Origin: an uncultured Desulfatiglans sp.
GTDB taxonomy: Bacteria; Desulfobacterota; DSM-4660; Desulfatiglandales; Desulfatiglandaceae
Reading direction: 5' to 3'
DNA: 64,000 nt
Assembly: GCA_900498135.1 (NCBI GenBank)
Contig: LR026961.1
Location: forward strand, 1,580,375-1,644,374
In this document: positions 27,989 through 56,718 of the stretch, in pieces
Position numbering within the stretch: the stretch's first letter is position 1
How the letters are laid out: each line of letters opens with the position of its first letter
Translations under genes and position numbers: made by a program
The notes under the pieces: generated by a model
Database searches by the model: none
What the model was told of the DNA's origin: nothing
The model's input: the letters and a program-made list of their open reading frames with translations, nothing else

Positions 27989-30061
27989 GTGAGGGCAGGA
28001 AGAGGAAGATGGGCCCGTTTGGCGGCCCTCGGGTTGATCCTGTGCTGGCCGCATGTTTCGGAAGCGGCCGACGTGAAGGAGGAGGAAACAGAGACCCACC
28101 ACATCGGCGAGATTACGGTCATGGCGCCGCAGCCGGGCGTGGAGATCACCACGGAAAAGACGATCATCCGCATGGATGAATTCAAAAAGCCCGGTGAGGT
28201 GCGGAGTCTGACCGATGTCCTGAACGAGATCGGCGGCATCGATGTGCAGCGCATCAACCCGCTCCTGGCGAGCCCGGGAGACGAGGTGTCCATCCGGGGG
28301 CTGAACGAAGGCCGGATGGTCATAGAGATCGATGGGCGCCGGATCAACCAGACCGGCCACAACGGCCGTTACATCGTCGATTGGTCCACGATCAACATGG
28401 ACGATGTCGAACGGATCGAGGTCATTCGCGGCGGCCACTCCGTGCTGCATCCCTTCGCCATCGGCGGGGTGATCAACGTCATCACGAAAAAAGGGAAAAA
28501 GACCACCAACCTCAAGCCTGATGCGACTGTCGGAGCAGGGATCGGCCGCTACGATACCTCGAACCTGTCGGCGTCGGTCAACGGGGGGGCGGCCGATTGG
28601 ATCGGCTACAATGTTTCGGCCAGCCGCCAGCAGACCGACGGATATCTGAGAAACAATTTCCAGGACAACCACAGCTACAACGGGCATCTCAGCTTTTACC
28701 TGCCGAAGGATGCGACGATCGAACTGGGTGCGAAGTACACGGATGTGAACTACGGGTTTCCTGTGATCAACGATCCATCCCGGCCGGATTACGATCCGGA
28801 TTACCCCATTTTTATTCCGGCGGATGCAGACAATCTGAGGCATCTCCCCTCCTCGGTCCAATACCCGGGAGACAAAGTCCCCCAATGGACCAAGCACACC
28901 ACCTACCTGGATGCCATCTTCCGTATGCCGGTGGGTCCGGGGGAATTCAAGTTCCATGCTTTCAGCCAGGAAGGCCGGCGCTGGGTGAGCAGCTATTCGG
29001 GGACGAGCTTCACGAACGATGTCCAGGTGAACGATCGCACCGAGGGGTATATCCTCCAGTACGGGGATGTAAAACTGGGCGATCATCACCTGGTGACCGC
29101 AGGGCTTGAATACCAGGAACTGGGAAGCCCCCCGGCCAACCCGAGCATCTACAAGGTCCAGTCGGCCTATGCGCAGGATGTGATCAGCTTGGGTGAAAAG
29201 TGGCGCCTGACCCCCGGGGTTCGCTACTACAAGGTGGACATGGACACCTATTACTCCTGGATGGAACAGGGCGTCGATAAGCCCGTCATGCCGACAGGCG
29301 GCAAGCAGCAGACGGAGAGCGGTTTCTATCCCAGCTTGAAGGCGGATTTCCAGGCTGCGCCGGATACGGCCCTTTATGCCGCTGTCAGCCGGTCATACCG
29401 CCTCCCGTGCCCGTGAGACTACTACTGGTGGGCGCGGTGCGCCTCACAGGACAACCCGGAGTTGAAACCGGAGTCGGCGTGGGAGTATGAACTGGGTCTC
29501 ATTCAGGATTTCAAGGCGACGACGCTCAGAGCGGCCGTCTGGTATTACGACATCCAAGATTTCATCAACGACAACGGCATCACGGCTCCGGGAACGGGGC
29601 TTGGGAGCGGCTGCCTTTACAACATCGATCACTTCAAGCTCTATGGCGGCGAACTGGAGGCGGCCGTTCGACTCGGTCCCAGACTGAGGGCGACGCTGGC
29701 CTATGTCTACCAGGAATATGACGTGGAGGAAAACCCGGTCTTCGAGAAGGAATGGACCTATTATTTGCCGGGGCTCCTGCCGAAGCACAAAGTCAAACTC
29801 CTAGCGCGGTACAATGTGTGGGAAGACGGCTGGTTCCAGCTGAGCTCACGCTACGTCTATAAACGCGAGGCCCAGAAAGGCACCGTCCTGGATGACTACA
29901 TCACCCTGGATCTGGGGTTCGAGCAGACCTTCCGCTTCCAGGGCATGGAGTACACCGCCAGCGTTTTCATGGGCAACGTGACCGGCACGGACTATCAGGA
30001 GCAGTCGGGCTATTTCATGCCCAAATATGTCTGGGGCTTTCAGATCGGGGCGCGGTTCTGA
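27989..30061 (+). CDS. TonB-dependent receptor with in-frame UGA (probable selenocysteine)
   Basis: Read through one TGA at 29414-29416, this frame gives a 690-residue outer-membrane receptor, a normal length. It has a signal peptide (cut near SEAADV), a plug domain (about 50-165, with 'VSIRGLNEGRMVIEIDGRR' and 'IEVIRGGHSVLHPFAIGG') and a barrel of about 500 residues. The UGA is codon 476 in 'RLPCP-U-DYYWWARC', so Cys474 and the possible selenocysteine form a C-x-U pair. The frame is the same on both sides and the following text ('NPELKPESAWEYELG') is a classic receptor signature. A SECIS-like hairpin starts 11 bases after the UGA. A nonsense mutation is the alternative. The start is GTG with AGGGAGG upstream. 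Confidence 0.75.
29428..29447 (+). promoter_or_regulatory. Candidate bacterial SECIS hairpin in the receptor gene
   Basis: Eleven bases after the UGA, GTGGGCGC pairs with GCGCC-(bulged T)-CAC around a GGT loop (29436-29438). Spacing, a stem of eight pairs and a G-rich three-base loop match the general bacterial SECIS pattern; a GGU loop and a bulged U also occur in E. coli fdhF, though there the bulge is on the other strand of the stem. Confidence 0.6.
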
Positions 30062-32039: not shown

Positions 32040-32172
32040 CCTTTCCATCCGGAAATGGTCTTTTTGGCCAATCTCGGCATCCATCTGCACGTTTGCTTGT
32101 GCGGCGACCTAAAAGTCGCCTCCGCAACGCTTGACTGCCTTGATATCGGCCAAAGCGGGACCCGCCGCGAAG
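32040..32172 (+). repeat. Dispersed intergenic repeat, copy A
   Basis: This is one of three related 120-145 bp elements in the window (others at 47095-47237 and 52158-52278). Shared blocks here include TTTCCATCCGGAAATGGTC at the left, GGCCAATCTCGGC, the internal hairpin GGCGACC/AGTCGCC, and GATATCGGCCAAA near the right end. It lies inside the uptake operon, between the permease and ATPase genes. No coding capacity. Confidence 0.75.
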
Positions 32173-46996: not shown

Positions 46997-47094
46997 GTAA
47001 ACCTCCGTTAATTTCGAATCCATTCCGGTGATAAGGCCGTTTCCTGATGCAAGCCCGTTCGTGTCCATCCGGTAATGGTCCCCCGGTACTACCC

Positions 47095-47237
47095 AGTTTC
47101 CAATCCAGGAATGAGGATTTTTAGCCAATGTCTAGAAATCCAAGCGCTTGCGCGGAGGCGACCTGGTGGTCGCCGCACAAGCAAACGTGCAGATTGACGC
47201 CGAGATTGGCTAAAAAGACCATTCCCGGATGGAAACT
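47095..47237 (-). repeat. Dispersed intergenic repeat, copy B, with inverted ends
   Basis: This copy is the most complete. Its ends are inverted repeats (AGTTTCCAATCCAGGAATG at 47095 against AGTTTCCATCCGGGAATGG read from 47237 on the other strand), followed inward by GGCTAAAAA/TTTTTAGCC blocks. The middle has the GGCGACC/GGTCGCC hairpin. It lies between the NikK- and NikL-like genes and its edge overlaps the NikK-like stop codon. A further partial end lies at 47066-47082. Confidence 0.8.
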
Positions 47238-48042
47238 ATTTCATATCGCGGGTGCGCACCCAGTAGACGGCCCCGATCTCCACTTCCTTTTCCTGCCCGT
47301 CCTGGTTCAGCTTCCAGTCGGCCTTGCTAAGGGCGGAGAAGCCCCACCAGCCGGCCCTCGGCATGGCGTAGGTGAAAACGCCGCCGGCATCCGCCTTGAC
47401 CACCTGCGTCACGTAGGGATCGGCCGGCGGCGTGACGACATGGACATTCCCGGGCGATTCATTCAGATATTCAATTTCCACTTCGGCGAACGGAACCGGC
47501 TTGCCCTTGAGCAGAACCTGGCCTGTAAAGACATTGCAGGTCCACAACCCGTAAGGGCGGGTCAACGGCACGATCTCCGTTTCCAAACCGACCGGCTGAT
47601 CCCAGCCTGCTTCCAGACCCAGGGCGTTGACGCAAACCTTGGTGTAATGGACGATGAAACAGTCCTCGGCGGGTTCCCAGTAAGGTGCAGGTTCTGTGTA
47701 GAAGGTATAGTCCCCCGGTCTGCGGATTTCAAAATCGGCGGTCCAGAAGGTGAATGCTTCCGTCTGATCGGGGCTTTTTCCCTTGGACGCCCGAAGGCCG
47801 CCGAGCAAGTCGGTTTTCTCGCCGTTATGGACCACGGCGAATTGCTTCGGCTTTGCCATGTCCATGTAATGCATCTCCATGGGATGGATGAACTTGATCT
47901 GAAGAGTCAGGTTCTTTGGGTCGTCCTTGGTCACGATGTCATCGGACGGTATGATCGCACCGAAGTGGCCCCAGGCGGGATCGAAAGACGCCACCAGGAG
48001 GGTTAGAACCGCAGCGGTTAAGCATGAAAAGACTTTGCGCAT
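47236..48042 (-). CDS. DUF4198/NikK-like periplasmic metal-binding protein
   Basis: This 268-residue secreted protein has a signal peptide ending in 'DPAWG' and a mature start [10 protein letters not shown], with beta-sandwich text typical of DUF4198 ('[20 protein letters not shown]', '[19 protein letters not shown]', 'GYLN-like' repeats). An N-terminal His after cleavage plus internal His/Met residues could bind nickel, cobalt or copper. Members called NikK accompany NikL in nickel uptake. The ATG at 48042 follows AAGAGG. The porin gene lies just upstream in the same direction, and a repeat element separates it from the NikL-like genes downstream. Confidence 0.75.
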
Positions 48043-52124: not shown

Positions 52125-52155
52125 GTTCTACCTGGAAATGATTTCCAGGTAGAAC
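52125..52155. repeat. Perfect 14-bp inverted repeat
   Basis: GTTCTACCTGGAAA (52125-52138) and TTTCCAGGTAGAAC (52142-52155) are perfectly complementary around three bases. There is no T tract, so it is more likely an operator or element end than a terminator. Repeat copy C starts three bases later. Confidence 0.6.
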
Positions 52156-52157
52156 TC

Positions 52158-52278
52158 AGTTTCCAATCCGGAAATGGTCTTTTCGGCCAATCTCGGCGCC
52201 AGGGGCGGCCTCCGGATTGCCCCTAAGCAAGCGCTCGATTTCCTGGATATCGGTCAAACCGGGACCGGCCGCGATGCA
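52158..52278 (+). repeat. Dispersed intergenic repeat, copy C
   Basis: AGTTTCCAATCCGGAAATGG at the left and GCAAGCGCTCGATTTCCTGG plus ATATCGGTCAAACCGGGACC at the right match copies A and B; the middle has diverged. It sits between the GT2 gene and the antiporter gene, next to the 14-bp palindrome. Confidence 0.7.
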
Positions 52279-54878: not shown

Positions 54879-55242
54879 GTGTTTTCCTGTGCGAAGGATG
54901 GATTCTTCGGGATGCCCGGGCCGGAGGCGGCCGGGGATCGGATTCTGCGCAAAATGCAGAACACTTCCACTGGATGCCTTGTCTGCCGAAACCGGTGTGG
55001 TCGGCAACCTTGTGTATCTAACTCTCCTAAACTATCATACGCCCGTAGTGGCTGAGCGCAAACCGCTTTTCGCAGGAACAGCCTTCTGACGGTTCTGCCC
55101 TTCGCCTCAGCGGATCCGGAAAGCGACGAGGAATGCAAGGCGGTTTTTCGAATTTTGAAAAGAAATGGCTGCCGCTCGATGGTGCGACGGATAGGCAAAA
55201 GATGGACGAATTCTTATCAAAAAACCTTAACGGAGGTCGACC
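54879..55242. other. Intergenic region without a recognised gene
   Basis: About 360 bases between the divergent GH17 and DsrE-like genes. Promoters for both should lie here. ACGGAGG at about 55230 is the ribosome site of the DsrE-like gene. Nothing else was recognised. Confidence 0.45.
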
Positions 55243-55554
55243 ATGAAGGTGTTGTTCATCATTACCACGGAGGACGGGGAGACCATTTACAACGCCATGA
55301 GGCTGGCCAATGTCGGCGTGAAGAAGGGGGACGAGGTCAGCGTCTTCATGCTGGGCAAAGGAGTCCTTTTCGAACAGGCCGGCAGTGATCAGTTCGACGT
55401 CATGGGGCAGATGAACCAGTTCGAGGGTGATTTCTATGTCTGAGGCGTCTGCATGAAATCCCACGGTCTCGTGGGATCAGCCTCCTGCCCTATCGGATGG
55501 ATGGATGACCTCTATGAACTTTCCATGGACGCCGATAAGGTCTTGACCTTTTGA
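55243..55554 (+). CDS. DsrE-like protein with in-frame UGA (probable selenoprotein)
   Basis: Read through a TGA at 55441-55443, this frame gives a 103-residue DsrE/DsrF-fold protein ending at the second TGA (55552-55554). The first 66 residues ('MKVLFIITTEDGETIYNAM', 'EVSVFMLGKGVLFEQ') and the part after the UGA ('GVCMKSHGLVGSASC', 'DDLYELSMDADKVLTF') together make one normal-length family member. The UGA is codon 67 in 'GDFYV-U-GVCMKS', where relatives have Cys, giving a U-x-x-C redox pair. A hairpin with a GGTCTC loop follows. DsrE-like selenoproteins are known from deltaproteobacteria. It probably carries or transfers sulfur (persulfide) groups. Confidence 0.88.
55458..55477 (+). promoter_or_regulatory. 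Bacterial SECIS hairpin in the dsrE-like gene
   Basis: ATCCCAC (55458-55464) pairs with GTGGGAT (55471-55477) around the loop GGTCTC. The stem begins 14 bases after the UGA. Spacing, stem length and the GGU-type loop fit SelB-dependent selenocysteine insertion elements. Confidence 0.8.
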
Positions 55555-55632
55555 CCCAATGACGGGTTTGTTCCGGGCAGGTCCGGCATCGGACTCGCCC
55601 CGCCTGGGAGGTCCAAGGGCGCGGCGAGTCCG

Positions 55633-55821
55633 ATGGTCCATTGCGGGCAGCAGAGGGGGACCGAACAGTGGCCCCTGATTCTCACGGGTACCCTCGCCGC
55701 CTTTCTCGGTGTCATGGCCGGCAGGCGCTTCCTTCACAAGATCACCATGTCGACGATCCAGGCCCTGACCGGCGGGCTCCTGGTGGTGATTGCCCTGGCG
55801 TTGGCGATCGGTGTGATTTGA
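55633..55821 (+). pseudogene. C-terminal remnant of a TSUP permease
   Basis: The 62-codon frame ends in 'LTGTLAAFLGVMAGRRFLHK' and 'ALTGGLLVVIALALAIGVI', the typical last two membrane segments of TauE/SafE-family sulfite exporters. The upstream DNA does not encode the rest in any frame, so this is a 5'-deleted relic. It lies between the DsrE-like gene and the siroheme/ferredoxin gene, in keeping with a former sulfur-related cluster. Confidence 0.5.
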
Positions 55822-55890: not shown

Positions 55891-56718
55891 ATGATGAAGT
55901 GGCAGGCAGATGCCGAGGCAGAGGTGAAAAAGGCGCCGTTCTTTGTTCGGAAGCGGGTGCGCCAGCGCGTGGAGGCGCAGGTTTCGGCGGAAGGACGTCA
56001 GGTGGTGACGCTGGACGACGTGCAGGCGGCGAAGAAGCGCTTTCTGAGCCGCATGAGCGAAGAGGTGCAGGGTTTTCAGGTGGAGGCCTGCTTCGGATCA
56101 CAAGGGTGCCCCAATCGGATCATCGAAGACAGCGGCCTGGTGCGGTCGATTGAAAAGGTATTCCTGGAGCAGGATCTGCGGGGTTTTCTGGAGCGGACGG
56201 TGCCCGGTCCTTTGAAGCTTCATCATGAGTTCCGCGTTGCCCTGGCGGACTGTCCGAATGCGTGCTCCCAGCCGCAAATCAAGGATATTGGACTGATCGG
56301 TGCGGCCGCGCCGTCGCGAACGGATGCCCCTTGCAATGAATGCGGCGCCTGCCAGGATGTGTGCCGGGAGGGGGCCGTGGCGGTCGACCCGGTCGGCCAC
56401 GGCCCAGTGTTCGAGTGGGACCGATGCGTCCGGTGCGGACAGTGCATCGGAGCCTGCCCCACCGGCACCATAGGCTGCGGGGAGCGGGGGTATCGGCTGC
56501 TGATCGGGGGCAAGCTCGGGCGTCACCCGAGACTGGCGGAAGAACTCCCCGGCCTCTACGATGCGGATACAATCCTGCATCTGCTGAAATTTTGTGTTCG
56601 GTACTATAAAGAGCACAGCAAGGGTGGAGAAAGGTTCGCGGCCCTGGTGGAAAGGGCCGGGCCGGCATTTTTCGACCTCCTGTCGGCGGAAGCCCGTCAT
56701 TGCCGGAAAGACGCCTGA
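55891..56718 (+). CDS. Siroheme sulfite/nitrite reductase-like protein with ferredoxin domain
   Basis: This 275-residue cytoplasmic protein has an N-terminal helical part of the type seen in protochlorophyllide-reductase-related proteins (1-60), a sulfite/nitrite reductase half with cysteines in ACFGSQGC (C-x5-C) and DCPNAC (C-x3-C), the classic siroheme-[4Fe-4S] ligand set, and a two-cluster ferredoxin domain with CNECGACQDVC and CVRCGQCIGACP. It is much shorter than DsrA or full sulfite reductases. It could reduce a sulfur or nitrogen oxyanion or serve in electron transfer or siroheme handling. The neighbouring DsrE-like gene suggests sulfur metabolism. Confidence 0.8.
   Translation: MMKWQADAEAEVKKAPFFVRKRVRQRVEAQVSAEGRQVVTLDDVQAAKKRFLSRMSEEVQGFQVEACFGSQGCPNRIIEDSGLVRSIEKVFLEQDLRGFLERTVPGPLKLHHEFRVALADCPNACSQPQIKDIGLIGAAAPSRTDAPCNECGACQDVCREGAVAVDPVGHGPVFEWDRCVRCGQCIGACPTGTIGCGERGYRLLIGGKLGRHPRLAEELPGLYDADTILHLLKFCVRYYKEHSKGGERFAALVERAGPAFFDLLSAEARHCRKDA

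Follow-up and report, generated by a model that had tools for sequence, protein, structure and literature searches.

The locus raises the question of whether an in-frame UGA ends a short reading frame or encodes selenocysteine (Sec) within a longer DsrE-like protein. The window that we analyzed is a stretch of 64,000 nucleotides from an uncultured Desulfatiglans sp., and its features are collected in Table 1. In the ORF table built with standard stops, the ATG-initiated frame at 55243-55443 comprises 66 residues and ends at TGA. Translation through this codon continues to the next TGA at 55552-55554 and yields 103 residues, with a C-terminal part reading ...FEGDFYVUGVCMKSHGLVGSASCPIGWMDDLYELSMDADKVLTF. 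Taken whole, the sequence evidence is best explained by a genuine, probably functional DsrE/DsrF-fold selenoprotein, a reading to which we assign a probability of about 0.95.

Table 1. Coordinates of the features in the window, with the evidence for each.
Feature	Position	Strand	Evidence
dsrE-like selenoprotein CDS, 103 aa + stop	55243..55554	+	Read-through translation, PF02635, relatives, AlphaFold2 model
UGA codon, predicted selenocysteine 67	55441..55443	+	TGA conserved among relatives; Sec/Cys-only column
Shine-Dalgarno-like GGAGG, 6 nt 5' of ATG	55232..55236	+	Direct reading
bSECIS-type hairpin AUCCCAC-GGUCUC-GUGGGAU, loop 55465-55470	55458..55477	+	Energy, synonymous constraint, covariation, published limits
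tsoX 3' remnant (HSGNPxU selenoprotein gene), 30 codons	55154..55246	+	83% identical over 30 aa to same-genus intact tsoX
TauE/SafE-type permease gene 3' remnant, 62 codons	55633..55821	+	PF01925 C-terminal positions 189-237, below cut-off; synteny break
Strong inverted repeat after dsrE stop, no T run	55587..55635	+	-37.5 kcal/mol, z -6.2
TonB-dependent receptor selenoprotein gene, PCPU motif-type	27989..30061	+	NF049947, UGA 29414-29416

The read-through UGA and its hairpin

The 103-residue protein matched PF02635 (DsrE/DsrF) with 40.1 bits (cut-off 22.7, E 4.7e-10) and covered the whole profile, positions 1-116 of 116. Its motif is U67-G-V-C70, and a third conserved cysteine lies at residue 82. 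A scan of genome contigs resulted in 80 loci with relatives 68-89% identical to the window protein, nearly all carrying the taxon label Thermodesulfobacteriota or 'Deltaproteobacteria'. The codon for residue 67 is TGA in 79 of them, and the eightieth (L078) has TGG at this codon. We did not accept the TGG as a true Trp codon or other non-Sec state, since L078 also has an in-frame TAG and therefore appears to be a decaying or erroneous copy. The gene also occurs in Desulfosarcina widdelii (L007), a culturable relative. When 150 family members were aligned, the column of residue 67 contained only Sec (137) or Cys (13). Comparative evidence thus places the predicted Sec67 where the family has its active cysteine. 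The original prediction had described a 66-residue truncated frame, a full-length DsrE-like protein obtained by read-through, and U-x-x-C where relatives have C-x-x-C; all three were recovered, the last by the alignment (CGTC and similar motifs).

When 395 genomes of the phylum were searched, the Sec-form gene appeared in many families, together with stop-free distant relatives with 37-50% identity and a further set with 30-38% identity, again with one TGA. The tree, built from a short alignment and with weak deep branches, needs about five changes between the Sec and Cys states, four of them forced by starred branches; therefore, Sec and Cys have been exchanged several times.

The 7-bp hairpin with a GGTCTC loop, noticed beforehand 14 bases downstream of the UGA, was confirmed, its loop starting 21 nt after the UGA. 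The RNAfold energy was -12.2 kcal/mol (z -3.69), and none of 200 shuffles was as good; RNAfold adds one closing G-C to the stem, giving 8 bp and the loop GUCU. Folding of the 50 nt from the UGA gave -19.7 kcal/mol (z -3.0). The published bSECIS limits are a stem of 4-16 bp, a loop of 3-9 nt with G in loop positions 1-2, a spacing of 16-37 nt, and an MFE of at most -7.5 (PMC13188914), and the hairpin lies within them in stem length (7-8 bp), loop (GGUCUC), spacing (21 nt), and energy.

Synonymous constraint was measured on 84 distinct ungapped relatives. The mean excess codon identity was 0.45 in codons 72-78 versus 0.04 elsewhere (p ~1e-6), with Ser73 encoded by TCC in 74 of 75, Gly75 by GGT in 75 of 84, and Gly78 by GGA in 72 of 75; the GTC codon directly 5' of the UGA is also constrained. 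The seven-pair stem was kept in 88.9% of the cells of the relatives' alignment. The SECIS check also covered covariation: 18 cells were doubly changed, versus 3.4 for shuffled data (0/500), and the agreement fell clearly when the pairing partner was slid. Many relatives, those with GAG for Glu77, have an A-A mismatch at one inner pair of the stem, where the window has A-U. Compared with their own synonymous recodings, Sec members fold more strongly (mean z -1.67) and Cys members hardly so (-0.43, p 0.002). The SECIS elements of other Sec DsrE-like subfamilies were checked by folding only, and the Rfam search of the window at gathering scores gave no match. The UGA and the hairpin do not coincide by chance, because the UGA codon is kept in 79 of 80 relatives, the hairpin codons are under synonymous constraint, and the stem covaries.

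The host genome (4.8 Mb, one contig) encodes full-length SelB and SelA, a tRNA-Sec with anticodon UCA, and, at G000:C1:3059355-3060272, a selD with an in-frame TGA (Sec-containing SelD). The genes that DsrE-like selenoproteins require, selA, selB, selC, and selD, are all present, and the absence of the machinery, named beforehand as the observation that would speak against the prediction, was not found. The proposed selenocysteine use at 29.4 kb is likewise borne out, as read-through of the TonB-dependent receptor gene gave a full-length NF049947 match of 1266 bits (cut-off 800). By this match, it is a predicted second, separate selenoprotein gene of an already modelled family. Its predicted hairpin GGGCGCGGUGCGCC, 3' of the UGA at 29414, was not stronger than shuffles.

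These data bear on the simplest alternative, in which the 66-aa frame is a pseudogene fragment and the UGA either terminates translation or stems from a sequencing error. The neighboring tsoX and tauE genes are cut short at the same spot, as would be expected of a decaying region. However, dozens of independent genomes have the UGA at this codon, the protein downstream of it is 68-89% conserved, the SECIS is under constraint, and the genome has the Sec machinery. This alternative is already contradicted by the comparative data, and we consider it extremely improbable.

DsrE-like selenoproteins with UxxC were, as first assumed, already known: they were reported from the Sargasso Sea in 2005 and from Desulfovibrio vulgaris in 2006 (PMC1088965, PMC1794560), and a 2026 review includes them as a family in its Table 1 (PMC13188914). 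The window protein adds a member to them, with the same PF02635 domain, UxxC motif, Sec at the family cysteine, bSECIS just 3', and bacterial group. The comparison was by tally and motif only; the window copy differs in sitting on a Tso-type remnant.

Fold and proposed chemistry

The AlphaFold2 model, computed from an alignment of the locus proteins, had a pLDDT of 95.2. Its top PDB matches (Foldseek, VIA-align) were DsrE-family structures with Z of 11.8-15.7, versus about 6 for unrelated folds, and comprised a Sulfolobus DsrE/F-like protein, YchN, Swol_2425 DsrE, TusBCD, DsrEFH, and MTH1491. The YchN, DsrE/F, and TusC structures match the model at Z 13-16. With phmmer, the single protein gave no match in the PDB; a profile was needed, and it aligned C-K-T-C of YchN on U-G-V-C. 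The fold is common to the window protein, E. coli YchN (1JX7), DsrE/DsrF, and TusBCD (Z 13-15), whereas these proteins have Cys in place of Sec, CKTC standing at UGVC in YchN, and share about 20% identity with it. No DsrEFH/TusBCD partner subunits were found beside the gene in the ORF tables or in the whole-genome DsrE search.

In the model, residue 67 ends the strand 63-67, just before helix 68-73. The predicted structure thereby places Sec67 where DsrE and TusD have the cysteine that carries persulfide sulfur. Selenocysteine would be inserted at residue 67 by SelB and the Sec-tRNA (UCA) together with the hairpin that begins 14 nt 3' of the UGA. The Sec67 selenolate would then attack the sulfane sulfur of a persulfide or polysulfide, or else a disulfide, and Cys70, perhaps also Cys82, would resolve the adduct, after which sulfide or the transferred sulfur would leave. 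Cys70 and Cys82 could thus be the resolving thiols. From the fold and the Cys homologues, we infer a likely sulfur chemistry for Sec-DsrE. The host genome contains dsrA and is therefore, by gene content, that of a dissimilatory sulfite/sulfate reducer; the likeliest use of Sec67 in such an organism, at roughly even odds, would be as the nucleophile of a cytoplasmic step that relays sulfur or reduces sulfane sulfur.

The protein might instead, like YedF, carry selenium or take part in its metabolism, rather than be an enzyme of sulfur relay or redox. The sole NCBIfam match is to the DsrE part of YedF (TIGR03527), weak at 15.1 bits and below the cut-off of 110; YedF, a selenium-metabolism protein whose C-terminal DsrE domain has CGxC, shares C/U-G-x-C with the window protein and has been linked to selD (PMC5322559). 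However, the window protein lacks the SirA-like N-terminal domain of YedF, the gene is not beside selD, and the relatives have no conserved sel-gene neighbor. A separate DsrE-domain gene at 3058455-3058727, about 0.6 kb from selD, is probably the host's own yedF, which also speaks against a YedF-like role for the window protein. We regard such a role as improbable.

A second Sec subfamily, 30-38% identical to the window protein, has UGKC, UGKL, or UGKS (L009:2208-2525, L151-L173). Since some of its members have no resolving Cys, UxxC is no general rule for DsrE-like selenoproteins. Among the further Sec subfamilies of the DsrE fold, some lack the second Cys (UGKL, UGKS, UKKA) and some occur as tandem DsrE pairs. 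The tandem pairs (L140:3405-4154, L150:3040-3766, L137:3162-3832, L156:2576-3345) have a Cys copy adjoining a Sec copy with UKKA or UGVC; L156 has two nearby Sec copies. By analogy with DsrEF/TusCD, the pairs suggest hetero-oligomers.

The Tso-type neighborhood and its decay

The Tso proteins were reportedly named by Haft and Tolstoy in 2025 (mSystems). In several genomes, the genes for TsoA (NF045695), TsoX (NF045809), and TsoY (NF047643), selenoproteins of families unrelated to DsrE, directly adjoin that for Sec-DsrE. G184, a genome of the same genus (L105, L176), has an ArsR-type regulator followed by TsoA, TsoX, DsrE, and a TauE/SafE-type permease. TsoA, TsoX, and DsrE are all selenoproteins there, TsoA being of the LULAxC type and TsoX having HSGNPGUVSC (NF045809, 138 bits), and the stop codon of tsoX and the start codon of dsrE overlap (ATGA).

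Of 73 loci with enough sequence, 15 had TsoA or TsoX on the same strand and at most 1.2 kb upstream, and in most loci having both genes, tsoX lies 0-23 nt 5' of the Sec-DsrE gene. Ten genomes were tested for TsoA; in all five positive ones it lies upstream of Sec-DsrE at a distance below 1 kb, and TsoB was over its cut-off in none of the ten. TsoY adjoins the gene in L055, L009, and L111. Plain ORF-based neighbor clustering gave no common neighbor of dsrE and was blind to tsoA and tsoX because both are split by UGA; UGA read-through revealed them. In relatives, Sec-DsrE is thus often the last gene of a Tso-type cluster (ArsR, TsoA, TsoX), with a TauE/SafE-type permease 3' of it in one. In the remaining 58 of the 73 loci, no TsoA or TsoX was found just upstream; therefore, the gene has no constant partner in a pathway. 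Nor is TsoX an obligate partner, as four genomes of the class are positive for TsoX but lack a dsrE within 1.5 kb.

The three adjacent, partly overlapping selenoprotein genes, with the ArsR-type regulator 5' and the TauE/SafE-type permease, are the basis for a tentative and rather doubtful proposal. TsoA, TsoX, and Sec-DsrE could be successive parts of one Se-dependent sulfur-handling pathway, whose DsrE step would have outlived the rest here. The same neighborhood can be read as heavy-metal or oxidant defence, with the window protein acting, together with TsoX and TsoA, as a thiol-disulfide oxidoreductase (thioredoxin-like UxxC) and not in sulfur transfer. UxxC is a redox motif, the recurrent neighbor TsoX is itself HSGNPxU/UxxC, TsoA adjoins an ArsR-type regulator, and most such selenoproteins are presumed to be redox proteins (PMC13188914). 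Nevertheless, the fold is that of DsrE/TusCD and not thioredoxin, the TauE/SafE and dsr context points to sulfur, and one Sec subfamily of the same fold is often without the second Cys (UGKL, UGKS). A redox role in defence is conceivable, although we lean against it.

Intact tsoA and tsoX beside dsrE, as in G184, do not occur in this genome; a search of it did not find TsoA and gave no TsoX match above threshold. The tsoX piece 5' of dsrE is a fragment because it scores 19.6 bits with NF045809 against a cut-off of 52; its Sec-encoding 5' part is gone, and its TGA stop overlaps the dsrE start (ATGA). The tauE remnant is 79% identical to L105, and in the same-genus relative the intact gene (270 aa) lies 3' of dsrE. 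Relative to L176, the window is missing about 2 kb that carries the regulator, tsoA, and the 5' portion of tsoX; some 0.6 kb of tauE sequence is also lost, as is a further stretch of about 1.7 kb beyond it. The surroundings of dsrE are 92-98% identical to the same-genus relative, deleted in places. The gene itself differs from the same-genus copy in three codons, two of them silently, and is therefore probably still under selection on its own. As the partners have decayed and dsrE is intact, its function is probably independent of them. The dsrE gene is the surviving piece of a multi-selenoprotein neighborhood that has otherwise decayed in this genome. Neither this context, with its tsoX and tauE remnants, nor the other Sec subfamilies figured in the original prediction.

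The inverted repeat after the dsrE stop, between dsrE and the tauE remnant, is a possible terminator-like or processing hairpin and also occurs in the sibling genome (L176 7330-7378). Three other stretches of the window (47061-47240, 32042-32154, and 52127-52201) are 85-89% identical to L176 6518-6697, just 5' of tsoX, and seem to belong to an intergenic repeat that is dispersed in these genomes. Downstream, 55891-56718 encodes a 275-aa protein with PCP_red, sulfite/nitrite reductase 4Fe-4S, and ferredoxin domains. This sulfite-reductase-like ferredoxin gene was rejected as a general partner, since the type is beside dsrE in only three loci: the window, L001 (NaphS2, on the other side), and L074 (on the opposite strand).

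A standard gene finder would report a 66-aa fragment instead of the 103-aa DsrE-like protein, and the NCBIfam release searched had no model naming a Sec-DsrE family, only the weak YedF match. As a result, the gene may well be mis-annotated across Thermodesulfobacteriota. The tight linkage of Sec-DsrE with TsoA/TsoX may be a new point, as may the further Sec subfamilies of the DsrE fold. The recurrent place of Sec-DsrE behind tsoA/tsoX gives the uncharacterized Tso selenoproteins a partner of known fold, whose likely sulfur chemistry makes their role testable.
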